Source of the DNA: Cycloclasticus sp.
GTDB taxonomy: Bacteria; Pseudomonadota; Gammaproteobacteria; Methylococcales; Cycloclasticaceae
Length of the DNA stretch: 64,000 bases
Assembly (NCBI GenBank): GCA_040743155.1
Contig: JBFLJU010000001.1
Coordinates: forward strand, 1,302,001-1,366,000
Direction: 5' to 3'
Below the pieces are notes generated by a model. It had not been told where the DNA came from. It did no database searches and saw nothing but the letters and a program-made list of their open reading frames with translations. The stretch's first letter is position 1. Every line of letters begins with the position of its first letter. This document shows, in pieces, positions 1,632 through 16,997 of this stretch. The position numbers were made by a program, and so were the translations under genes.

Positions 1632-2777
1632 TTAATGTGTTCTATCAGCATATTTTTTATACTCATCTGGAATAGAAATATCTTTTGGTGCTGCAGGTTT
1701 TTTCCAGCGTTTTTCTGTCGCAATGCGTAGCTGATAAACGTATGCCAATACTTGAGCAACTGCCAAATACAAGCCTTTTGGTACTTCTTGATCTATCTCT
1801 GTTGAGAAGAACAAAGCACGAGCAAGCGGCGGCGCGGAAACTAAAGTAATACCATTTCCAACGGCAATATTTCTAATTTGTGCGGCCATTAAATCTGCTC
1901 CTTTAGCGACAACAGTCGGCGCACCGTTACCACCATCTTCATATTTAAGCGCTACCGCGAAGTGTGTTGGGTTAGTCACAATGACATCGGCCTTAGGCAC
2001 CGCTTCCATCATTCTTCCCTGAGACATTTCCTGTTGTAATTGACGTATTTTGCCTTTTACTTCAGGCCTGCCTTCGGTTTGCTTCATTTCATCTTTTACT
2101 TCTTGAAGCGTCATCTTCAATTTCTTCTTATATTCCCACAAACTAAACGGCACATCGATCGCCGCAACCAGCAATAAAGACGAGCATAAAATAACGAATG
2201 ACATGGTCATAACATCACTCGCTCGAAGTAGCGCATCTTCTATTGGCAATTTACTGAGGGATATAAATTCAGGCAAATATATGTCCGCTAATAGCGCCAT
2301 AATGCCCATCACTAAACCAAATTTAAGCAATGACTTAACCAGCTCAATCAAGCTTCGTACCGCAAACATTCGCTTCATGCCTTCAATCGGGTTCATTTTG
2401 CTAGCTTTGGGCGCGAATGCTTGGGCGCTAAAAGACCAACCACCCATCGCAATGGGCCCGACTAAGGCGGCAACAACCATAGCCGCCAAAAAAGGCGCAA
2501 CAAACATCAGCGCTTCTTGCATGGCAAATTGCAAGCTTGCCACCGTTTCCAATGGGTCAAACATGCTGCTTCTATCTATTTTGAACGCACCTTCCATCAC
2601 ACGCCACATACCCTTTAGAATACGATCACCCGTCATCCAAATCATCATTGAACCCATCATCAAAACGACGACCGTATTGAGTTCCCTAGAGCGTGCGATA
2701 TCCCCCTTTTTTCGGGCATCCTCCTCCCGCTTGGCGGTGGGTTCCTCGGTTTTTTCTTGATCGCTATCGTCTGCCAC
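1632..2777 (-). CDS. flhB: Flagellar export switch protein FlhB
   Basis: FlhB is the autocleaving substrate-specificity switch of the flagellar export apparatus. The 381-residue length is normal. Four membrane segments lie at about 33-50, 88-112, 150-168 and 190-212, followed by the cytoplasmic domain with the cleavage motif NPTH at residues 269-272. The lysine/glutamate-rich N-terminus is typical. The start is GTG at 2777, immediately after the fliR stop, and no better ATG is in frame. With fliK upstream in the cluster it sets the rod/hook-to-filament switch. Confidence 0.97.
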   Translation of the reverse strand: MADDSDQEKTEEPTAKREEDARKKGDIARSRELNTVVVLMMGSMMIWMTGDRILKGMWRVMEGAFKIDRSSMFDPLETVASLQFAMQEALMFVAPFLAAMVVAALVGPIAMGGWSFSAQAFAPKASKMNPIEGMKRMFAVRSLIELVKSLLKFGLVMGIMALLADIYLPEFISLSKLPIEDALLRASDVMTMSFVILCSSLLLVAAIDVPFSLWEYKKKLKMTLQEVKDEMKQTEGRPEVKGKIRQLQQEMSQGRMMEAVPKADVIVTNPTHFAVALKYEDGGNGAPTVVAKGADLMAAQIRNIAVGNGITLVSAPPLARALFFSTEIDQEVPKGLYLAVAQVLAYVYQLRIATEKRWKKPAAPKDISIPDEYKKYADRTH

Positions 2778-2778
2778 A

Positions 2779-3558
2779 TCAGTGCCTTATACGCAGAAAA
2801 TCGCCAATAACGCCGTAGCTTTCGGCAAGCAAATTTGTAAAATTACCTAACACCGATGGAATCGTCACCCACATTAAAAGCAAACCCAAGGTCAAGGTAA
2901 TAGGAAAACCAACCGCAAAAATATTTAGCTGTGGCGCCGCTCTTGTCACCACACCAAATGCAATATTAATCATGAGTAATGACGCAATAGCAGGCATCGC
3001 CATTAAAAGGCCAGCAGAAAAAATCCTGCTCGACCACGCGATAATTGACCAAACATCTGAACGTTCCATGCCCATCGCGCCTATTGGAAGCGTATTAAAA
3101 CTATCAATTAACATCTCTATTAAAACAAGGTGCCCACCCAAGGTTAGAAATAATAACGTGGACAATACCAAATAAAATTGACTAACAACTGGCACGCTCA
3201 CACCCGTTGTAGGGTCAACCATAGAAGCAAAACCGAGACCCATGCTGTAAGCGATACCCTGCCCAGCGAATATAATCGCACTAAACACCAGCTGCAAAAC
3301 AAAACCCATTGAGATACCGATTAAGGTTTGCTGTAAAGCAGTGATAATACCTTCGTGACTTAACACTTCAATGGCCCGGTGCTCGGGTAACAATGGAAGA
3401 GTAAAAAACGTAATAATCAAGGTCGCGCCGACAAGAAGTTTACTATCGACAAAGCGGCCGCTAAACACAGGGATCGCAATAAACATAGCGCTAATGCGCA
3501 GCAGCGGCCAGAAAAAGGTTGATGCCCACATCATGATTTGTTGTTCGCTGTAAACCAT
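2779..3558 (-). CDS. fliR: Flagellar export protein FliR
   Basis: This is an integral membrane component of the flagellar export gate that assembles with FliP and FliQ at the core of the basal body. The 259-residue protein is almost wholly hydrophobic, with about six membrane segments. It has the family feature of a glycine-rich segment around residues 100-125 (GQGIAYSMGLGFASMVDP), which marks it as FliR rather than SpaR/YscT of an injectisome. It starts at ATG 3558, 14 bases after the fliQ stop, and its stop abuts the flhB start. Confidence 0.96.
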   Translation of the reverse strand: MVYSEQQIMMWASTFFWPLLRISAMFIAIPVFSGRFVDSKLLVGATLIITFFTLPLLPEHRAIEVLSHEGIITALQQTLIGISMGFVLQLVFSAIIFAGQGIAYSMGLGFASMVDPTTGVSVPVVSQFYLVLSTLLFLTLGGHLVLIEMLIDSFNTLPIGAMGMERSDVWSIIAWSSRIFSAGLLMAMPAIASLLMINIAFGVVTRAAPQLNIFAVGFPITLTLGLLLMWVTIPSVLGNFTNLLAESYGVIGDFLRIRH

Positions 3559-6459: not shown

Positions 6460-7023
6460 TTATTGCATCACCAAGTCGGTAAAAAAAACTTCTAATACTT
6501 TCGACGAAACTTTTCTTTCTGCTAAAACCTTATTAATCTCAGCTTTGACGACAGCTTGTAACTGAGTCTTACCTTCTGCTGTTTTTAGCATTTCCGGATT
6601 TTGACTAGACAACAACATCAAAATATTATTTCGAATAACCGGATCATGCTTTTTAACGGCTGAAATCACTTTCTCATCTTTCACCATTAAACTCATTGCT
6701 ACTTTAATCACCTTGATATTACCATCGGGAAAATTCACCATAAACGGAGGTGTCAACGCTTGATACAGCGTTTCCGCAGCATCACCAGATTCTTCCGCTT
6801 CAGCACCCTCTTCTGCACTATCGCTTCCTTCGGGTAAGGTTCCTTCAGAACTAGAAGACTCGGCCGTCACCGGTGCCTTTTCTTCTTCGAAAAACCCGGT
6901 GAAGTACAAACCAGCACCGGCAAGAATGGCCAGTAGCACAACTCCACCAGCGACCATAATGATTAGTTTCTTTTTAGAACTGCCCGCTTCCTCAACAGAT
7001 TCTTCTTGTTCTTCTTCAGCCAT
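6460..7023 (-). CDS. fliL: Flagellar basal body-associated protein FliL
   Basis: FliL is a single-pass inner-membrane protein around the stators that affects motor torque. It has a short acidic cytoplasmic N-terminus, one membrane segment at about 19-44 (KLIIMVAGGVVLLAILAGAGLYFTG), a long Glu/Ser-rich acidic linker (about 47-85) and the conserved periplasmic domain (about 90-187). It is the first gene of the fliLMNOPQR-flhB-flhA unit. Its ATG lies 33 bases downstream of a sigma-54-type promoter. Confidence 0.95.
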   Translation of the reverse strand: MAEEEQEESVEEAGSSKKKLIIMVAGGVVLLAILAGAGLYFTGFFEEEKAPVTAESSSSEGTLPEGSDSAEEGAEAEESGDAAETLYQALTPPFMVNFPDGNIKVIKVAMSLMVKDEKVISAVKKHDPVIRNNILMLLSSQNPEMLKTAEGKTQLQAVVKAEINKVLAERKVSSKVLEVFFTDLVMQ

Positions 7024-7056
7024 AATATTCTCTATATGTGTATTAAGAATATTATT

Positions 7057-7072
7057 AGCAATTGCTATGCCA
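7057..7072 (-). promoter_or_regulatory. Sigma-54 (RpoN) promoter for the fliL operon
   Basis: The minus strand reads TGGCAT-AGCAA-TTGCT. It has the invariant GG and GC dinucleotides exactly ten bases apart and matches the TGGCAC-N5-TTGCT consensus at all but one position. Transcription would start about 12 bases past the GC, leaving a leader of about 22 bases before the fliL ATG at 7023. Class II flagellar operons in Pseudomonas and Vibrio are driven this way with a FleQ/FlrC-type activator; no activator gene is in the window. Confidence 0.85.
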
Positions 7073-7190
7073 TTAAATAACCCTATTTATTACAATAAGT
7101 TAAAAGATGAATTCAACACAATGTCAAATTCAAGTCATAAATATAGTGAGCCAACTCTAATATTCGTCAAAATTTAGTCATGCATTACAT

Positions 7191-7227
7191 GCAAAGAAGC
7201 CCGAAGTGCATTCAACGCACCTCGGGC
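7191..7227 (-). terminator. Rho-independent terminator after fliK
   Basis: The hairpin arms at 7199-7209 and 7217-7227 (GCCCGAAGTGC / GCACCTCGGGC) pair over ten of eleven positions around a seven-base loop. On the minus strand they are followed by a short T-rich tract (TTCTTTG, ending at 7191). It lies 32 bases after the fliK stop and before the fliL promoter, so fliK is probably transcribed apart from fliL. The weak T tract may allow some read-through. Confidence 0.75.
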
Positions 7228-7259
7228 CACTCAAATAAGTATTTCCGTGGGCTTAACTG

Positions 7260-8594
7260 TCAGGCAAAATCGCTAAATAACCCGTTATATTGCCTTTGTT
7301 GTGTATTTTCTTGCTGATCGAAAACCGACTCTTCCAATTCTCCATCTAGGTTAGATACATGACCCTTACCATCTTGACTATTGGACGCTTGTTGGTCACG
7401 TTGCTCAGCAAAAGAATGCTGGGAAACATCAATATCAACAACATTTACATTTTGCTCGCTTAGCATTTCACGCAAACGAGGTAAAGCAGCATCAATAGCT
7501 TCCCTTGTTGCACCATGTTGCGCTGTAAAAGAAACTACTGCTTGATCATTTTGCATTTGAATCCTAACTTCAACAGGCCCCATGTGCTGCGGGTTTAATC
7601 GAATCTGCGCCCCACTCATCGATTGATTAACAACCCACTGTACCCGTTGACTAAAGTTTTCACCCCAGCGAGAGCTATTCATAGGCGTATCCAATTGAAT
7701 GGTTGGTCTGTCGACGGCTGCCTGCTGCCTCGCTTCTATTGTCATTACTGCCGGATTAGCTTGTAAGCTTTCAGTAGTTATTTTTGTAACACCTATATCC
7801 TTCGCCAGACTGGATACCGAGTTGGCTTCTTGTAACGGCTTTTGAATACGATCAAGAAGCACGTCACGCACATCAGCATTATTAGACTCATCTGTTGGCA
7901 AAGCTACGCTTGATGAGTTAAAAAAATCGGCCGCGTTATTCTTCCCATTAAACTTAACTTTTTCATTCGGCAAGTGACCGACAGTAGATGCAGCCATTTG
8001 AGCCGATTTCTCATTTGCTTGACCAAGAGGATCAAATATTATCTTTTTATCTTGCACATCTAAATTAACAACGCTCCCATCAGTTAGCAATATTTCCGTC
8101 TCATCAGCGAGCAGCCGCTCTTCGTCACTTGCTGATAGAGCTCCAGCATTTATACCTGCCGCCTGTGGCAATTCATTGCCGCTTATGCTGTCATCGGCAA
8201 AACCGATACCAAGATGACGCTTCTCCGAAATAATACCAATAGCAGTCGATAGACCAGGTGCCTGTTCAAGAACAGAGCCTTCTTCAATCAATGCATCCAA
8301 ACCTTTAGGCATCCCAAACTGAGTTGCGATTGTTTCCTTTGGCACGTCATTTTCACCCCGTGATGTGTTGGTTTTTGATACCGCCTCATCTTCGGCTACA
8401 ACCCCTACCCTATTAAGCTTTGTAGGAGGTGCCGCATGCCTCTCCTTTTGTTCTCCTTTAATACGGTCTACATTTTCCCCAAGGTGTTCAGAAAAACCAC
8501 GACCTGCCAGTTCTTTGGAATCGCTTCCAACTAAATCAACACCGGAGCCACTGGCCTTACCTACAGGTAAATTAAACATGACTGGCACTTCCAT
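7260..8594 (-). CDS. fliK: Flagellar hook-length control protein FliK
   Basis: FliK is a secreted molecular ruler that measures the hook and triggers the FlhB specificity switch. The first 300 residues are low-conservation, polar and probably extended. The C-terminal Flg_hook domain (about 305-400) is recognisable by WGENFSQRVQWV, RLNPQHMGPVEVRI and the VSFTAQHGATREAIDAALPRLREML helix. The ATG at 8594 is preceded by GGGGAT at a good distance, favouring it over the internal Met6. The gene has its own sigma-54 promoter and terminator. Confidence 0.92.
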   Translation of the reverse strand: MEVPVMFNLPVGKASGSGVDLVGSDSKELAGRGFSEHLGENVDRIKGEQKERHAAPPTKLNRVGVVAEDEAVSKTNTSRGENDVPKETIATQFGMPKGLDALIEEGSVLEQAPGLSTAIGIISEKRHLGIGFADDSISGNELPQAAGINAGALSASDEERLLADETEILLTDGSVVNLDVQDKKIIFDPLGQANEKSAQMAASTVGHLPNEKVKFNGKNNAADFFNSSSVALPTDESNNADVRDVLLDRIQKPLQEANSVSSLAKDIGVTKITTESLQANPAVMTIEARQQAAVDRPTIQLDTPMNSSRWGENFSQRVQWVVNQSMSGAQIRLNPQHMGPVEVRIQMQNDQAVVSFTAQHGATREAIDAALPRLREMLSEQNVNVVDIDVSQHSFAEQRDQQASNSQDGKGHVSNLDGELEESVFDQQENTQQRQYNGLFSDFA

Positions 8595-8904: not shown

Positions 8905-10542
8905 ATGAGAGTATTTCAAAAAACACCTTTAGCGCTCGGCGTTGCAGCAGGCATGGTCATGCTAGTAGCATCAACTGGCGCGCAGGCGATCAGTACAGGT
9001 ACTGATCTTAACTTATCCGCACACGCAGCCGCAGGCGGCATGGCAGGTGCAGCTTACACACGCCCACAAGAAGTTTCAGCAGCTGTTGCCGGTAACCCAG
9101 CAACACTAACTCAATTCCCTGGCGTAAACTTTAACTTTGGTGCTGCGTTAATTAGCATCACGGACGTACAAACAAACACTGACACAACATTAGATGTTGG
9201 CGGCGGCGGAGAAAGTGCACAAACTGTCTTGGCTTTCCACAATGAATCTCATTCAGATGCCGACAATTATATTGTTCCAACGTTAGGCGTATCACTGCAA
9301 GTTTCTCCAAAACTCTTTTTAGGTCTTGGTCTTGAAGCAGATGCGGGCTTAGGTTCAGACTTTCGTGATGACGCACTTCAATTATATGCGGGTTCTGTAG
9401 AAGATGCTGTCAACGGTTTTGGTTTAACTGGTGATGCTTTGGGGTTATTAGACGGGCCAGTTGCCGCACCGTTACTGGTTGAAGTTATTTCTTTCAACGC
9501 AAACTTAGCAGCTGCTTATAAAGTAACTGATCAACTCTCAGTTGGTGGCGCACTTACTATTGGTTTTGGCCTTGCACAACTTGGCACAGCAGGTCCAACG
9601 ACAGGGTTTGATACAGTAAGTGACTTAGTTGTTGACGGTCTTGCTGGAGCTCCTGCAAATGATGGTAATGTTGATTCGGGTGTTCTAAGCAATTGGGGCG
9701 GTTCTACATCATCAGTTCATGATATTGGCTTTGGGTGGACATTGGGCTCCACATACATCGTTGCTGACGGCATAACAACCAGCTTAACGGTCAAAAGCCC
9801 TCTTGAATATAAGTTCAAAAACATTATATATGCTGACCCGGCAACAACAGGTGGCGACATGGTACCCGGTAACGCAGTTGACGGTTGGCAGCATCTCGAT
9901 ATTGAACAGCCACTTGAAATCATTGCTGGTGTAGCTCTTGAAGACGTGATTGCTCAAGGTTTATTGGTTGAATTAGACGTTGTTTGGAAAAACTGGGGCG
10001 ATGCTGATGCTTATGAAGATGCCTATGAAGATCAGTTCTTAGTGAATTTAGGCGCCCAGTACACCACTGGTAACTGGCAACTCAGAGCCGGTTATAGCTG
10101 GGCTGAAGACATCTTAAAAAGCACTCCTAATAGCACATTAGGACAGTTAACCGGACTAGGTAATTTACCTCTTGGCGAAGGAGCTGCTGCACTAGATGAA
10201 TTAACAGGTGCCGGCATAGTAGAACCTTTAGCAACTGACTTCGTTGAAATTGTTCAAATGAGCCTGTTACCTGTCATTTGGGAACACACATTTACCGCGG
10301 GTGTTGGTTATAACTTTACCGATGCTGTGCGTGTAGATGCTTTTGTTGCCTATGCTCTAGGTGAAAAAGAATCGCGTGACCTCGAAACTGCTGCGCTTGC
10401 TTTAGACGTGGGCTTAGGCTTAATTGATGCAGATAACGGCAATTCAGGCGCCTTTGTATCGAATGGTACTACTTCAAGTATTACCGCAGATATTGATACA
10501 GAAATCATGTTTGGCATAGGTATCAATGTAGCACTACCATAA
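8905..10542 (+). CDS. FadL/TodX/OmpP1-family outer-membrane hydrophobic-compound porin
   Basis: The family forms 14-stranded outer-membrane barrels that pass long-chain fatty acids or aromatic hydrocarbons inward. The 545-residue product has a clear signal peptide cut after AQA (about residue 28) and the FadL-type N-terminal plug region with GGMAGAAYTRPQ and the NPATL motif near 65-69. Alternating barrel strands follow, ending in a terminal aromatic/hydrophobic strand (IMFGIGINVALP). It is longer than E. coli FadL (about 446), with acidic, glycine-rich loops. It is monocistronic: its own ribosome binding site precedes the ATG and a strong terminator follows. The substrate cannot be read from the sequence. 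Confidence 0.85.
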   Translation: MRVFQKTPLALGVAAGMVMLVASTGAQAISTGTDLNLSAHAAAGGMAGAAYTRPQEVSAAVAGNPATLTQFPGVNFNFGAALISITDVQTNTDTTLDVGGGGESAQTVLAFHNESHSDADNYIVPTLGVSLQVSPKLFLGLGLEADAGLGSDFRDDALQLYAGSVEDAVNGFGLTGDALGLLDGPVAAPLLVEVISFNANLAAAYKVTDQLSVGGALTIGFGLAQLGTAGPTTGFDTVSDLVVDGLAGAPANDGNVDSGVLSNWGGSTSSVHDIGFGWTLGSTYIVADGITTSLTVKSPLEYKFKNIIYADPATTGGDMVPGNAVDGWQHLDIEQPLEIIAGVALEDVIAQGLLVELDVVWKNWGDADAYEDAYEDQFLVNLGAQYTTGNWQLRAGYSWAEDILKSTPNSTLGQLTGLGNLPLGEGAAALDELTGAGIVEPLATDFVEIVQMSLLPVIWEHTFTAGVGYNFTDAVRVDAFVAYALGEKESRDLETAALALDVGLGLIDADNGNSGAFVSNGTTSSITADIDTEIMFGIGINVALP

Positions 10543-10569
10543 TCCTTGGTCAGCGCTAAATAAGAATCG

Positions 10570-10594
10570 AACCCCGCTTAAAGCGGGGTTTTTT
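10570..10594 (+). terminator. Rho-independent terminator after the FadL-like gene
   Basis: An eight-base-pair GC-rich stem (AACCCCGC / GCGGGGTT) with a TTAAA loop is followed by a run of T residues on the plus strand, 27 bases past the stop codon. Confidence 0.92.
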
Positions 10595-10753
10595 ATTATG
10601 GGTAACCGTACGGCGTCTAATAATTACTTCAAGCTGGCAATGTATATCATCTACAACGAACTGGTTAGCGCATATACTTAATGACGGTGCTAAACAACCC
10701 AACATTCACTACCAGTTATTTTTAGGAAAAAACAAAAACATACTTACTTTACG

Positions 10754-12568
10754 ATGCCTCAACAAAAAACCATTCCTGTCTTTATCGATCTCTCATCGTT
10801 CCCAACGACTTTAATAAATCTTGATACAATTGATAAGTGGCTATCAACTGTTTTTGAATTAAACATTTCGAACTCTTTTCTCAGCAATCAAACATCATTA
10901 AGTAAAAAAAATAGCTCGCTCTACGCTCTAGCCTACAGAGTTCAACAGTTATCGAATGTTTTCTTACAACTTACTAATATTCCCGCATTTTACTCAAGTG
11001 ATAAAATTCAAATCATCAAAAATAGGGACCAACCAGCCAGCTCAAGCATCTCTATACCGATTGCTTTCATCGAGAAAACTGACCTAAAAGCCTATGAAGT
11101 AGCTGCTTTATCAGCCTTTGAAATCATTTACTGGATGAATTCAAACAAGTTAAACACCAGTAATATTCAGCTTTTATATAAAATTGTTGAACAAAAAATT
11201 AACAAACCTCTTGAACCCTTTTTCACTGGTTGGAAATCCACTCTTCCCATTCTTAGAGCAGCATATGAAGAAAATGTACCCTTTATTCACTTTGGTTCTG
11301 GTGCTTACCAATTAGGCTGGGGTTATAAGGCACGATTGATTTCTAATTCTGCTAATGAGCATGATTCAGCATTAGGCGCTCACATGGTACAAAATAAAAT
11401 AAAAGCCGTTTCCACCCTTAAAATGGCAGGGCTTCCTACGACACAACAATCTGCTGTTAACTCAGAAAAATCCGCGTATTCTGCTGCGAGCAAGTTTGAC
11501 TGGCCTGTTGTCGTAAAACCTTCATCTCGTGACCGAGGCGAAGGGGTAACAACTGGTATTAATGATAAAGAAAAGTTATTAAGCGCCTATAAGAAAGCTC
11601 TCAAACTTTCCCCCCACGAGCCTGTTCTAGTTGAAAAAATGTTAGAGGGTACGTGTCACCGCCTATTTATTTCTAATTACTCTTTTCTATATTGTGCCAG
11701 ACGTTGGCCTAGATCAGTTAAGGGTGATGGACGCCGTACGGTAGCCCAGTTAATTTCTGATTTTAATTCCGAAGAGAATGCTAAAGCCCCCTGGTTAAGA
11801 TCTACACCTTACCCTAGTGATTCTCTCGCCAAAAAGGTAATGCATAACAATGGCTATTCTTTACAGTCCATTCCTAGTACCGGAGAACTTGTACATTTAA
11901 GACCTTTTCAGTCAGACGAATGGGGAGGCTCTGCTGATGATGTATCGACAAGCGTTCATCCCGACAACATTGCGATTGCAATAAAGGCAGCGAGGTTATT
12001 TGGCCTTTATAATTGCGGTGTCGATATAATTAGTTCGGACATTAGCCAACCATGGCATGTAAATAATGCGGCCATACTAGAAGTAAACTACACTCCTTCC
12101 TTAGGCGATTCGCCTGTATCAAAACATTATGTAAAACCCTATATAAAGGGACTAGTTGATGGTAACGGAAGAATTCCAATACACATTTTTATGGGTAAAA
12201 AGACAGCTCTTGGAAAGGCACAAAAAAAACATAAGGAACTTTTAGGGAGTGACGTTAAGTGCTATTTAACTACACATGATACGACGCTAGGCTCTTTAGA
12301 AAATGAAATAAAAATGCCTGTTAACGGGCTCGCAAAGCGTAGTTTTTCTCTGCTACTAGACCGCCAAGTGGAAGCTCTTTTAGTTGTCGTTCAAACCGAT
12401 GAATGCTTATTTGAAAGCCTCCCTTTCGATCAAGTTGATAGCTTTACAAAAGCTGATGAGCAGTTGTCTTCATGGACAAATTCAAACGCTATTTTACCCT
12501 CTCAAGCAGGCAATGCTGTTAGTGGACTACTTGAGCAACTCGTTATGAGCCAACCTTACAATACATAA
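10754..12568 (+). CDS. Cyanophycin-synthetase-like ATP-grasp ligase with a degenerate, truncated Mur-ligase tail
   Basis: ATP-grasp enzymes join a carboxylate to an amine through an acyl phosphate. Residues 1-170 match the CphA N-terminal region in size. Residues 171-468 are a CphA-type ATP-grasp: LGWGYKARLISNS (187-199), VVVKPSSRDRGEGV (252-265, Lys255), VEKMLEGTCHRL (293-304), GDGRRTVAQLI (324-334) and the metal-binding segment LEVNYTPSL (442-450). After NGRIPIHIF (471-479), where CphA enters its Mur-ligase P-loop GTNGKTT, this protein has MGKKTALGK and stops near residue 604, lacking the rest of that module (CphA is about 870-900). It cannot be a normal cyanophycin polymerase. The start has no good ribosome binding site: AGGA lies about 25 bases upstream. 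It is followed after nine bases by an ornithine-cyclodeaminase-family gene. Substrates are unknown. Confidence 0.75.
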   Translation: MPQQKTIPVFIDLSSFPTTLINLDTIDKWLSTVFELNISNSFLSNQTSLSKKNSSLYALAYRVQQLSNVFLQLTNIPAFYSSDKIQIIKNRDQPASSSISIPIAFIEKTDLKAYEVAALSAFEIIYWMNSNKLNTSNIQLLYKIVEQKINKPLEPFFTGWKSTLPILRAAYEENVPFIHFGSGAYQLGWGYKARLISNSANEHDSALGAHMVQNKIKAVSTLKMAGLPTTQQSAVNSEKSAYSAASKFDWPVVVKPSSRDRGEGVTTGINDKEKLLSAYKKALKLSPHEPVLVEKMLEGTCHRLFISNYSFLYCARRWPRSVKGDGRRTVAQLISDFNSEENAKAPWLRSTPYPSDSLAKKVMHNNGYSLQSIPSTGELVHLRPFQSDEWGGSADDVSTSVHPDNIAIAIKAARLFGLYNCGVDIISSDISQPWHVNNAAILEVNYTPSLGDSPVSKHYVKPYIKGLVDGNGRIPIHIFMGKKTALGKAQKKHKELLGSDVKCYLTTHDTTLGSLENEIKMPVNGLAKRSFSLLLDRQVEALLVVVQTDECLFESLPFDQVDSFTKADEQLSSWTNSNAILPSQAGNAVSGLLEQLVMSQPYNT

Positions 12569-12577
12569 ATTTTAAAC

Positions 12578-13594
12578 ATGCTATCAAATACAAATACACC
12601 CCCTAATATTCTAGATCCTTTAGTAGATATATTTAAATTAAGCGGTGAACCCTTTGAGTACTTAAGCGAATCTGATGTCCACTTAGCTCTTACTCAAAAC
12701 CCTACCGAGTATTATCAATTTGTAAAACAACGCGTAACAAATTTAGCCATTCAAAAATCTAAATTCATAATGCCACCAAAGACTTTATTTCCTGACAAGG
12801 ATACTGATGGTGACTTTCGGATCATGCCCTGTATTATCGAAGAAAATGACGAGGTAATGAAGACTGTTAAACTAGTTGGCACAAATGTTATCCAACAATC
12901 TGTACCTAACCAAATTACTGTAGGTAAAGCATGCGTCCTACACCCCACCGAGAACTATATTACGCATATTGTTGAAGCGTGCCTTTTATCATCCGCAAGA
13001 ACCGCCATTTGCGCCATGCTAGGCGTTGAATTGTTATCTGCTCGTGATGCTAGCAAGCTTACAATTATAGGTGCTGGTCGCGTTGGTTATTATTGTGCTT
13101 ATTACGCATCTGCATTGTCTTGGTTTAACGAAATCATTATTCATGACACAGACAGCTCACGTGCGCAAAGCTGTGTGAAGACATTACAATCACTCTTCCC
13201 AAAAATAAAATATATAACATCTAAAAGGCAAGATTTAATCGATACTGACGTACTCATCTTATCTACTACCAGTACCGCTCCACTTTATGCAACACATGAT
13301 TTTAAGGCAGACTTAATCATCAGTGTAGGTGCTGACATTGATACACAAAGAGAATTGGATAATAGTTGGGCTAAAGCGGCATCTGTATTTGTTGATAGCT
13401 ACGATAGTGCACGTTACGGAGATATTAAAGTTTGGCTAGACAATAATTTAATCACCTCAACCTGCTTAACAGATCTATTTAGTTTGCTACGTAGTGAAGT
13501 CTCAATCACTTATAACAAACCACGCATTTTTGTATCTACGGGCACTGCTTTTTTTGATAACCTTTCACTTTCATATATCTTAAGAAAGGTCTAG
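12578..13594 (+). CDS. Ornithine cyclodeaminase / mu-crystallin family NAD(P)-dependent enzyme
   Basis: The family includes ornithine and lysine cyclodeaminases, alanine dehydrogenases, ketimine reductases and the siderophore enzyme SbnB. The 338 residues show the substrate-binding lid with PPK (66-68, PPR in many relatives), TVKLVGTN (96-103), SSARTAICAML (138-148), the Rossmann turn IIGAGRVGYYCA (163-174) and SVGADIDTQREL (249-260), where Asp253 aligns with the catalytic aspartate of ornithine cyclodeaminase. Key residues look intact, so an active enzyme is likely, but the exact reaction cannot be assigned. It is spaced nine bases from the ATP-grasp gene and has no other partner, which suggests it makes the amino or imino acid that the ligase uses, or modifies its product. 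Confidence 0.8.
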   Translation: MLSNTNTPPNILDPLVDIFKLSGEPFEYLSESDVHLALTQNPTEYYQFVKQRVTNLAIQKSKFIMPPKTLFPDKDTDGDFRIMPCIIEENDEVMKTVKLVGTNVIQQSVPNQITVGKACVLHPTENYITHIVEACLLSSARTAICAMLGVELLSARDASKLTIIGAGRVGYYCAYYASALSWFNEIIIHDTDSSRAQSCVKTLQSLFPKIKYITSKRQDLIDTDVLILSTTSTAPLYATHDFKADLIISVGADIDTQRELDNSWAKAASVFVDSYDSARYGDIKVWLDNNLITSTCLTDLFSLLRSEVSITYNKPRIFVSTGTAFFDNLSLSYILRKV

Positions 13595-13672
13595 TCAGCA
13601 CCTTATTTATGTAGACCAAAAAATACTAAACCTCCCAGCCGCATCACTTATTCAAGATAACACCTACACATT

Positions 13673-13701
13673 AAAAAGCCCCGATAATCCGAGGCTTTTT
13701 T
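13673..13701. terminator. Bidirectional terminator between the ligase cassette and icmF
   Basis: Arms AAAAAGCC (13673-13680) and GGCTTTTT (13693-13700) flank a short partly paired loop. The A tract on one side and T tract on the other suit both the plus-strand cassette and the minus-strand icmF, whose stop lies just beyond. Confidence 0.85.
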
Positions 13702-13721
13702 ATGTTTATGAAAGTAGTTTT

Positions 13722-16700
13722 CTACATATTCCGCCTATACTGCCCCCCGACTTCGAAGAAGGTATCGGTAATTTGACCCAGCGAACAATAACGCCCCGCT
13801 TCCATCAGCACCTCAAAGACATTCTCGTTTGCTTGAACCGCTTGTCTTAAGTCCTTAATAGCTTGCTCAGACTTTTCTTTGTTTTCACCGTGTACGGCAT
13901 TTAAACGACTCAATTGACTTTGCTTTTCTTCCTCAGTTGAACGAGCAAGTTCAATGGTTGTTTCCGCGCCGTCTTCATTTGGATTTTTAAACGTGTTCAC
14001 ACCAATAATAGGTAATTCACCGGTATGTTTTAGCATTTCATAATTCATTGATTCATCTTGAATTTTGCCACGCTGGTAACCCGTCTCCATTGCACCCAAC
14101 ACACCGCCACGTTCGGAGATGCGTTCAAATTCACGAAGTACAGCTTCTTCAACTAGGTCAGTTAATTCATCAACGATGAACGAGCCTTGCAATGAATTTT
14201 CATTCTTTGCTAAACCATATTCTTTATTAATGATCAGCTGAATCGCCATGGCACGACGCACAGACTCTTCGGTCGGTGTGGTAATCGCCTCGTCGTATGC
14301 ATTCGTGTGCAGACTGTTGCAATTGTCGTTTATCGCAATAAGGGCCTGCAAGGTGGTTCTAATATCATTAAAGTCCATCTCTTGCGCATGTAGCGAACGA
14401 CCGGATGTTTGAATATGATACTTAAGTTTTTGCGAACGATCACTCGCGCCATATTTAAAGCGCATAGCCACGGCCCAAATACGACGAGCCACACGGCCCA
14501 TCACAGTATATTCTGGGTCCATACCATTCGAGAAAAAGAACGATAAACTTGCTGCAAATTCATCAATTTCCATGCCACGTGACAAATAGGTTTCTACATA
14601 AGTAAAACCATTTGACAAGGTAAAGGCTAATTGTGAAATTGGGTTCGCACCCGCTTCAGCAATATGGTAGCCAGAGATTGAAACAGAATAGAAGTTACGC
14701 ACTTTTTTCTGAACGAAATACTGCTGAATATCACCCATCATTTTCAGGCTGAATTCAGTCGAAAAAATGCAAGTGTTCTGACCTTGGTCTTCTTTTAAAA
14801 TATCCGCCTGTACCGTCCCGCGCACATTGGCTAGTGCCCAATCTTTAATTTCATTACGTTCTACTTCAGACGGATAATGGCCATTTTCTGCTTCGAACTT
14901 AACGCATTGCTGATCAATAGCGGTATTTAAGAAGAAGGATAATAGCGTTGGTGCTGGGCCGTTAATGGTTAACGAAACGGAGGTACTGGGTGCACATAAA
15001 TCGAAGCCATCAAACAACACTTTCATGTCGTCTAAGGTCGCAATAGAAACGCCAGAGTTACCAACTTTACCGTAGATATCTGGGCGCAAACCAGGGTCGT
15101 TTCCGTAAAGCGTCACCGAGTCAAAGGCTGTAGACAACCGTGTCGCTTCTGCATTTTCGGACAACAACTTGAATCGTCGGTTGGTTCTGAACGGGTCACC
15201 TTCACCAGCGAACATACGTGCAGGATCTTCACCTTCACGCTTAAAACCAAACACACCCGCCGTATACGGGAAGCTGCCGGGAACATTTTCTTTCAATAAG
15301 AAGCGCAGTTGTTCACCATCATCTTCAAAAACCGGTGTCGATACCTTAGGAATGCGTGTACCCGCCAGCGAGTAACTTGCAATATTGGTGGTAAATTCCT
15401 TACCACGAATATTACTAATATAAGTGTCTTTTTTATACGCCGTTTTAATCTCTTCCCACACTTCAAGAAGTCGCTTACAACGCGGATCCAGCGCATCCTC
15501 ACGTTTGGCTATTTGCTTGCTAAACGCACCTTCAACCACCACATCGTCGCCCAGCATACGCTGTGCTTCTTTAAGTTGCTGACGTTCTCTTGCAACAGTG
15601 ACTTGTTGCCGAATTGTTTTATGATAATCGCGTACCGTTTCGGCAATTTCCGCCAAATAGCGCTGGCGTTCCGCGGCAATAATTGAGGTGGTGGTGGTAG
15701 AACGCTTCGACTCAACTGGCGCAAAGAAATCTCCTTCCCAGACATTCAATTCTTTGCTTTCAAAGGTTTTTAACAGTCCTTGGTACAGAGCTGTTACGCC
15801 ATCGTCGTTAAATTTTGATGCAATCGTGCCGTATATCGGCAGGTCTTCCATCGGAGTTGTAAATAATTCGTAGTTGCGCTGGTATTGCTTTCTTACATCA
15901 CGGAATGCATCTTCACTGCCTTTGCGGTCAAACTTGTTAATAACAACCAAATCGGCAAAGTCCAACATGTCAATTTTTTCAAGCTGACTGGCGGCACCAA
16001 ATTCAGGTGTCATCACGTACATAGACGTATTTACATACGGCACAATACCTGCATCGCCCTGACCAATACCCGGTGTTTCTACGATGATCAAATCAAAGCC
16101 TGCGACTTTACACGCATTGATGATATTCGGTAATGCTTCTGGCACTTCGCCTTGCGTGTTACGCGTTGCGATAGAACGGAAATAAATATTAGGCTGATTA
16201 ATGGCATTCATGCGAATACGATCACCCAATAAGGCACCCCCTGTTTTACGCTTAGTGGGGTCAATCGCGATAATGGCAATTTTTAAATCTTCAAGCTCTA
16301 AGCTAAAACGCCTCACCAATTCATCGGTTAATGACGATTTACCTGCTCCCCCTGTACCGGTAATACCGAGCACCGGTGTTTTGGCAAAATCAGCGGCACT
16401 CGTTGAGAGCGCTTCGAGTTGTTTATCAGATATCGTTTGCTCGTCCAAACCAGTGATTAGACGGGATAGTTCTCGGTATTCATTCGCCGTTAAATTATCA
16501 AAATTACTTGGAATATCAGTGCTTGCTAAGTCGTAATCTGATGTTTCGATCATTTCATTGATGATGCCTTGCAACTGCATGCTCTGACCATCGTGTGGTG
16601 AGAAAATATGCGACACGCCGTAGGCGTGCAACTCTGCAATTTCCTCTGGCACAATAACGCCACCACCGCCGCCAAAGATTTTAATGTGCGAGGCACCTTT

Positions 16701-16997
16701 CTCTTTTAACAGGTCGATCATGTATTTGAAATATTCAACATGACCGCCTTGATATGAACTGATCGCAATGCCGTGCGCATCTTCTTGAATAGCGGCATTA
16801 ACCACTTCTTGTACTGACCGGTTGTGCCCTAGGTGAATAACCTCTGCACCGGTGGATTGTAAAATACGGCGCATAATATTAATGGCCGCATCATGACCAT
16901 CGAATAAACTTGCTGCGGTAACAAAGCGAACATGATTTTTGGCTTTATATCTCGGTATTTTGGTTGGGTCAATTACTGCTTCTTGTGCTGCTGACAT
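13722..16997 (-). CDS. icmF: Fused isobutyryl-CoA mutase IcmF (B12 domain, MeaB-like GTPase, mutase)
   Basis: IcmF interconverts n-butyryl-CoA and isobutyryl-CoA with adenosylcobalamin and carries its own G-protein chaperone. The 1091 residues show an N-terminal B12-binding domain (about 22-150) with FDGHDAA at 32-38 supplying the cobalt-ligand histidine. A MeaB-type GTPase follows, with P-loop GTGGAGKSS (214-222) and NKFD (in [10 protein letters not shown]). The methylmalonyl-CoA-mutase-like barrel (about 540-1075) is recognisable by the [19 protein letters not shown] stretch. This order distinguishes IcmF from methylmalonyl-CoA mutase. The start ATG has AGGAG nine bases upstream. It follows an acyl-CoA synthetase gene by ten bases. 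Related acyl-CoA specificities (for example pivalyl-CoA) cannot be excluded by eye. Confidence 0.93.

Follow-up and report, generated by a model that had tools for sequence, protein, structure and literature searches.

A CphA-like ligase without a Mur ATP site, paired with an ornithine-cyclodeaminase-family enzyme in Cycloclasticus, may form a small amino-acid or peptide tailoring module

ATP-grasp ligases use ATP to activate a carboxylate, which is then attacked by an amine, and those of the CphA type are known mainly as makers of polymers. Two kinds of CphA serve as reference here: CphA1 (7lg5, 7wae), whose ATP-grasp domain gives the closest profile matches to the ligase described below, and CphA2 (7ta5, 8fxh/8fxi), in which an N-terminal domain and an ATP-grasp domain of the CphA type are followed by no more than the first half of a Mur-like domain. 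The ornithine cyclodeaminase (OCD)/mu-crystallin family, for its part, brings together pyrroline/piperideine-2-carboxylate reductases, alanine dehydrogenase, the iminosuccinate reductase BhcD, SbnB and the ornithine and lysine cyclodeaminases. We describe here a pair of adjacent genes, one related to each of these families, in a stretch of 64,000 nucleotides (the window) from Cycloclasticus sp., a marine bacterium that degrades oil (assembly GCA_040743155.1, contig JBFLJU010000001.1, positions 1,302,001 to 1,366,000), whose genome of 2,563,313 bases is designated G000; other genomes and loci carry similar G and L numbers. The first gene (10754..12568, plus strand) encodes a CphA-like ATP-grasp amide ligase of 604 residues, identified by its open reading frame (ORF), CphA profiles, sequence matches in the PDB and an AlphaFold model. 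The second (12578..13594, plus strand) encodes an OCD/mu-crystallin-family NAD(P) enzyme of 338 residues, identified by PF02423 and a model, and is probably an imine reductase or an amino-acid dehydrogenase. The two ORFs lie nine bases apart on the same strand, as a preliminary description of the locus had given them, and its view that the pair is not a named pathway agrees with the open-access literature, where we found none (subscription journals lie mostly outside this search).

The ligase consists of an N-terminal domain (residues ~1-160), an ATP-grasp domain (~161-475) and a degenerate half Mur domain (~476-604), of which the CphA models cover residues 161-450 only (PRK14016, 211 against 877 bits; TIGR02068, 200 against 850). 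An AlphaFold model computed from a ten-sequence alignment reached a predicted local distance difference test score (pLDDT) of 80.6, with low values at 320-328 and 376-392, and superposed on CphA1 and CphA2 from end to end (residue 2 or 3 to ~600), with Z of 17-22 and a root-mean-square deviation (rmsd) of 4.5-6.5 over 495-551 residues. Because the model aligns with these proteins over its whole length, the C-terminal ~125 residues are, as modelled, the first half of a Mur domain. The Mur P-loop (GTNGKT) is absent from the window ligase and from all ten aligned family rows, which bears out the earlier view that no working Mur ligase is left. Nine ATP-grasp residues (K215, K255, E294, R303, R317, R383, D424, E443 and N445) are invariant in the same ten rows. 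Compared with CphA1, the ligase lacks the Mur ATP site, the N-domain HxxEH motif (there is no His at all in residues 1-160) and the G-site His267. According to PMC9262961, changing H267 to Ala inactivates SuCphA1. At this position the profile alignment places Arg261 of the window ligase, and all ten family rows have Arg. We had considered this change as a mark of the clade and dropped it, the His being missing in all eight CphA-like outgroup rows as well; these rows are not classic CphA1, the Mur P-loop being present in three of the eight by eye and in one by strict pattern. The position of SuCphA1 R269 is the better mark: it is Glu in 10/10 family rows, in none of the eight outgroup rows, and not in L012c.

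Relatives of the ligase were collected by profile searches of whole genomes, in which clear members reached an E value of 1e-118 or better. They occurred in 4 of 311 genomes of the order, 5 of 369 in a class sample and 4 of 398 in a phylum sample; searches in the orders of G557 and G656 gave clear members in 1 of 394 and 1 of 5 genomes, none of them new. These samples overlap and each includes a genome already known to carry the ligase, three or four candidates were scored per genome in the large surveys, and some matches, here as in the OCD-family and precursor profile searches, are the profile's own rows (A2, A5, A6, A7) and so partly by construction, although these rows have independent support. 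At a cut-off of 1e-60, the order and class surveys each held three genomes with weaker CphA-like matches only; these matches and a second one in G297 form the outgroup. A scan of genome contigs added one ligase genome (G061, locus L015), and an earlier contig scan with one sequence gave no match. The ligase is thus counted in ten genomes: G000, G010, G061, G184, G297, G345 (frame-broken), G472, G557, G656 and G998. In a tree that leaves out the G345 and G998 proteins (the former is also outside the alignments), ten rows form a clade with support of 100/98, separate from the eight other CphA-like proteins and from L012c. A single clade of OCD-paired ligases (support 69/65) is not claimed. Among 129 plasmid records matched by the ligase, none covered 80% of it; the OCD-family protein matched 32 plasmid records, with identities of at most 29.1% among the 15 listed, and nothing in viral contigs.

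What sets this clade apart is the company its genes keep. An OCD-family gene adjoins the ligase gene in three of the ten genomes (G000, G010 and G557). The spacing is 13 bases in G010, a second genome of the same genus; in the distant G557 the order is reversed, the OCD gene coming first and overlapping the ligase start by four bases (ATGA), and its product is 29% identical to that of G010 (PF02423, 64.7 bits). Among 18 Cycloclasticus genomes, eight of them less than 90% complete, those with a close ligase and those with a close OCD homologue are the same two, the query genome among them. The co-occurrence that the preliminary description asked for is thus supported, by G010 and, in reversed order, by G557. 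In G010 a methyltransferase gene, whose product is 57% identical to one in a second locus of that genome, follows 23 bases after the OCD gene, which weakens the earlier picture of a self-contained cassette; a convergent dioxygenase gene comes next, for which GntD, clavaminate synthase and VioC are the best-scoring models, none of them reaching its cut-off. Since the G010 pair is followed by a methyltransferase and then a dioxygenase, the window pair may be a reduced form of a longer pathway.

In four other genomes (G297, G184, G345 and G656) the ligase gene adjoins instead an aKG-HExxH peptide beta-hydroxylase (TIGR04267, above cut-off), with a gene for a peptide of 43-79 residues lying between the two. 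These peptides look like precursors, with an LDxSKLxGFK-like N-terminus, one to three K[IVL]G[KI] units and, by eye, a purine-rich stretch before the start. Ligase, peptide and HExxH genes share one strand in G297 (L036, 8123-11362) and G656 (L041, 8517-11561), and the ligase gene is divergent in G184 (L037, 9737-13253) and G345 (L040, 9591-12925). The arrangement looks like that of a ribosomally synthesised and post-translationally modified peptide (RiPP), and no description of it was found in the same literature search. Of nine ligase genomes searched, four have the HExxH enzyme and five gave none, these five including all four with a close OCD homologue; across the nine, close OCD and HExxH enzyme are thus mutually exclusive. 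Control genomes gave one match, below cut-off (Haloferax volcanii). Clusters of aKG-HExxH enzymes with precursors have been described (PflC/PosC, PMC12636437), and the main text of that paper does not contain the terms ATP-grasp, ligase or cyanophycin. The four relatives resemble such clusters; the window genome, without an HExxH match, differs from them. Graspetides offer another comparison, since their ligases (PsnB, 7drm/7dro) also have an ATP-grasp fold and act on ribosomal peptides, but the fold match of PsnB to the window ligase is weak and partial (TMq 0.26-0.27). Graspetide cores contain acidic residues, whereas the GAKIGK-like units of our relatives' peptides have Lys and no acidic residue. 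Two further clusters were seen in these genomes. In G345 another precursor-like peptide, sharing the DPSKLLG start, is found next to another HExxH gene, and no ligase adjoins them (L083, ~6981-8278); its match to the precursor profile is weak (E 0.10) and was retained because it adjoins that gene. In G184 a radical SAM protein, a 2OG-Fe(II) oxygenase and an HExxH enzyme stand in a row (L084, 4950-7526), possibly a separate peptide-modifying cluster.

A third type of partner is seen in G998, where an AMP-binding domain (an adenylating enzyme) and the ligase are fused in one protein of 1102 residues, the ligase forming its C-terminal part. The fusion lies next to a second CphA-like ligase (L082, 9257-14760), and its 20 kb neighbourhood gave no OCD or HExxH match. 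The preliminary description had tied the ligase to the OCD enzyme. This does not hold for the family, since four of the ten genomes have the HExxH enzyme and peptide, one the adenylating fusion, and two (G472 and G061) no such neighbour; a YbiX-like dioxygenase gene lies upstream of the G472 ligase. Several other loci with CphA-like ligases came to light. On contig 15 of G010, a gene that by eye resembles kdsB (2574-3329) has downstream of it a cluster free of nonribosomal peptide synthetases (NRPS) (L012, 3357-15115) with three CphA-like ligases, two of them family members and one more distant. The cluster also encodes a GNAT protein, a paralogue of that protein which matches no Pfam family, two methyltransferases, an AMP-binding enzyme, and amino-acid oxidase-like and threonine-synthase-like proteins. 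A P-loop-less CphA-like ligase stands with a cytochrome P450 and a dioxygenase-like protein in G297 (contig 43, L088, 6209-10953) and G540 (contig 13, L090, 5430-9947), possibly a second conserved pathway; the P450 was tested by profile in L088 only, and the other names at both loci are by eye. Finally, CphA-like ligase domains appear to be fused behind N-terminal regions that look TPR-like by eye in G218 (L086, 8046-10496) and G088 (L087, 164-2644).

The second protein of the pair scores 98.4 bits with PF02423 (cut-off 24) and falls under every NCBIfam equivalog cut-off. Its best equivalog is the pyrroline/piperideine-2-carboxylate reductase model (77 against 322 bits), while the ornithine cyclodeaminases PRK07589 (41.6 against 350), PRK08618 (58.5 against 417) and PRK06823 (44.6 against 438) and the SbnB model TIGR03944 (68.4 against 326.9) are likewise far from reached. 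No ORF for an SbnA-like, pyridoxal-phosphate-dependent partner lies between the genes that flank the window pair; a threonine/cysteate-synthase-like gene is present in G010, on a contig other than that of its pair. What the protein shares with the OCD/mu-crystallin family is PF02423, the whole fold and the Arg/Lys/Asp set, invariant in all four OCD rows; what distinguishes it is the distance from every equivalog and its linkage to a ligase. A model built from the four rows (pLDDT 76.8) matches solved family members with Z of 26.6-31.6: piperideine-2-carboxylate reductase (7rbp) comes first at 31.6, followed by mu-crystallin (30.5) and pyrroline-2-carboxylate reductase (30.1), and the cyclodeaminases reach 26.6-27.3. 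The ranking weakly favours imine reduction or amino-acid dehydrogenation over cyclodeamination. It had been proposed that the protein keeps the catalytic Asp253 of ornithine cyclodeaminase; the residue is indeed there, invariant in 4/4 rows, but since alanine dehydrogenases of the family share this position, it is no proof of cyclodeamination. An acidic residue after the second Rossmann strand is the rule for NAD use, and D190, directly past that strand and invariant in 4/4 rows, suggests that the enzyme uses NAD.

Taken together, the ligase relatives look like a little-studied family of partner-swapping amide-bond makers. The ligase would be a stand-alone enzyme, a descendant of CphA in which the ATP-grasp site is retained and the Mur site is gone, and, going by its family and conserved residues, it would activate one carboxylate as acyl phosphate and join it to an amine. 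Members of the clade would exchange their partner among an OCD-family enzyme, a peptide beta-hydroxylase with a precursor-like peptide, and an adenylating enzyme. The most likely reaction of the OCD-family enzyme, with NAD(H), is the reduction of an imine (cyclic or N-substituted) or the conversion of keto and amino acids into one another. Because the partners have in common that they make, activate or oxidise amino acids or peptide residues, we propose that the pair may be a minimal amino-acid or peptide tailoring module in which the OCD-family enzyme provides or completes a non-standard amino acid and the ligase couples it, giving a small amide or peptide; we rate the chances of this proposal as about even. 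The analysis shows the linkage of the genes, the folds, conserved residues of the catalytic type and the alternative partners, whereas the direction of the reaction, the order of the two steps and all substrates are what we infer. The co-synthesis idea of the preliminary description, in which the product of the dehydrogenase or cyclodeaminase is joined by the ligase, is plausible, and the compatible-solute role suggested with it is not supported. A paper on paralogous methionyl-tRNA-synthetase operons (PMC2922099) lists ornithine cyclodeaminase and ATP-grasp genes among their varied members, a different system.

Several observations weigh against the proposed module. Only three adjacent ligase-OCD pairs are known, two of them from one genus. 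In G472 and G061 (two of the ten ligase genomes) no such partner adjoins the ligase, the OCD relative of G061 being short (279 residues), unlinked and on another contig. Weaker OCD-family matches in G184 (E 9e-13), G472 (6e-10) and G345 (1e-4) mean that genes of the OCD family in the wide sense also occur outside the OCD group. The fold does not discriminate sharply either: the Z values of iminosuccinate reductase (30.1), alanine dehydrogenase (30.0) and SbnB (29.4) are on a par with those of the imine reductases, 3hdj, described as a probable cyclodeaminase, reaches 28.8, and the pLDDT of the model is below 50 at 252-254, where Asp253 sits. Finally, no product, transporter or regulator was found for the pair.

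The explanation that fares best among the alternatives is RiPP-like tailoring, in which the ligase would act on a ribosomal peptide and the OCD-family enzyme would oxidise or cyclise the attached residue, the precursor being encoded elsewhere or unrecognisable. Four relatives of the ligase adjoin a precursor-like peptide and an aKG-HExxH enzyme, and PylC and PylD, which in pyrrolysine synthesis combine an ATP-grasp enzyme with a dehydrogenase, are a chemical precedent. In the window genome, however, the HExxH enzyme gave no match, nor did it in G010 (83% complete), and a precursor profile search of nine genomes turned up nothing with an E value of 1 or lower in G000, G010 or G557. The precursor motif likewise led to no plausible short ORF in the window or in two 20 kb loci of G010: three motif matches in the window fall in open frames of 26, 22 and 12 residues and were judged to be chance, and two weak profile matches were rejected, one in G472 (E 0.37), which looks like chance, and one in G061 (also E 0.37), which contains a stop. 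We consider this explanation improbable for the window pair. A broader version, which we put forward tentatively and rate slightly higher while still doubting it, would make the CphA-derived, Mur-dead ligases an undescribed class of peptide-tailoring enzyme with two branches, one with HExxH partners and one with PylC/PylD-like OCD partners. In the HExxH branch the ligase would add or link residues on ribosomal GAKIGK-repeat peptides alongside the aKG-HExxH hydroxylase; in the Cycloclasticus branch it would attach a diamino or imino acid made or cyclised by the dehydrogenase.

The site of the pair bears on a second alternative. On the left lies an outer-membrane porin-like gene (8905..10542, plus strand), named from the preliminary description and its sequence, whose product has no NCBIfam match at 1e-10; on the right lies the gene for a fused isobutyryl-CoA mutase/GTPase IcmF (13722..16997, minus strand), whose earlier identification is borne out by NF045497 (1904 bits, cut-off 1500). 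Matches to the porin gene occur in 10 of the 18 Cycloclasticus genomes, and the gap to icmF could be compared in three congeners whose fetched stretch also reached icmF. In G008 there are three porin copies with icmF ~0.1 kb further on and nothing between; in G007 the gap holds small genes resembling a RelE-type toxin-antitoxin pair, and in G012 transposase-like ORFs (both named by eye). The pair of G010 also comes after a porin gene, icmF lying outside the stretch seen. Since the same gap is empty or otherwise filled in congeners, the pair is cargo of a variable porin-icmF junction, in agreement with the inserted unit proposed earlier. The junction spans 10542-13722 in the window, 3195-4498 in L045, 387-1501 in L046 and 2937-3044 in L055, and across Cycloclasticus it is seen empty or with toxin-antitoxin-like, transposase-like or ligase-OCD contents.

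Of the two terminators said to bound the unit, a terminator-like hairpin after the porin gene (10569..10594, plus strand) was found at the left edge by a hairpin scan, which listed it at 10569-10591 once per strand, with shuffled sequences equally rich (2 sites against a mean of 2.5). The one at the right edge, between the convergent OCD and icmF genes (13673..13701, strand not assigned), is seen by eye as a stem with one mismatch and was not listed by the scan. The two genes had also been called AT-rich. Their G+C (0.392 for the ligase gene, 0.376 for the OCD gene) is indeed under the median of 0.44 for the 48 ORFs of the window, and at third positions the OCD gene is the lowest and the ligase gene the fifth lowest, but the adjacent porin gene is as low (0.316); composition alone is therefore no proof of foreign origin, and we rejected it as such. 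Between the window and G010, pN is 0.236 and pS 0.763 for the ligase gene and 0.184 and 0.778 for the OCD gene (both pS saturated); the pN/pS ratios of 0.31 and 0.24 fit purifying selection on both genes.

A variable junction could also have received two unrelated genes with separate roles, neighbours by chance, as unrelated cargo at the same site in congeners would allow; moreover, both genes are present but apart in G061, and in G472 the sole OCD-family match is weak and lies away from the ligase. Against this stand the tight arrangement (gaps of 9 bases here and 13 in G010, a 4-base overlap in reversed order in G557) and the close homologues, which are both present or both absent across the 18 congeners. 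We regard mere neighbourhood as a poor explanation, a little poorer than that of a ribosomal substrate.

Least credible by a wide margin is a CphA2-like polymerase that would re-polymerise beta-Asp-Arg or a similar dipeptide while the OCD-family enzyme consumed the ornithine released: it has in its favour the CphA2-like architecture of N-terminal domain, ATP-grasp domain and dead half Mur domain and the fold match to 7ta5 (499 residues, rmsd 4.5, Z 20.6; 515 residues for 8fxi), and against it an identity to CphA2 of only 18-20%, partner genes in the family that encode amino-acid- and peptide-modifying enzymes, the changes of H267 to Arg and R269 to Glu in 10/10 family rows (the former a weak point, because this residue is also changed in 8/8 outgroup rows and, by pairwise alignment, in CphA2 7ta5), and the lack of a second, CphA1-like match in the window genome (one match, eight scored candidates), so that no source of cyanophycin or dipeptide was found there. 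Because that genome gave a single CphA-like match, cyanophycin chemistry, including polymerisation of the cyanophycin type, seems unlikely for the window ligase.

For the family as a whole, the exchange of partners offers a direct route to testing the substrate of the ligase. A clade of CphA-derived ligases that has lost its Mur site and swaps its partners would guide genome mining towards ribosomal peptides and small amides that escape searches based on NRPS, and such mining would reach, among others, marine hydrocarbon degraders.

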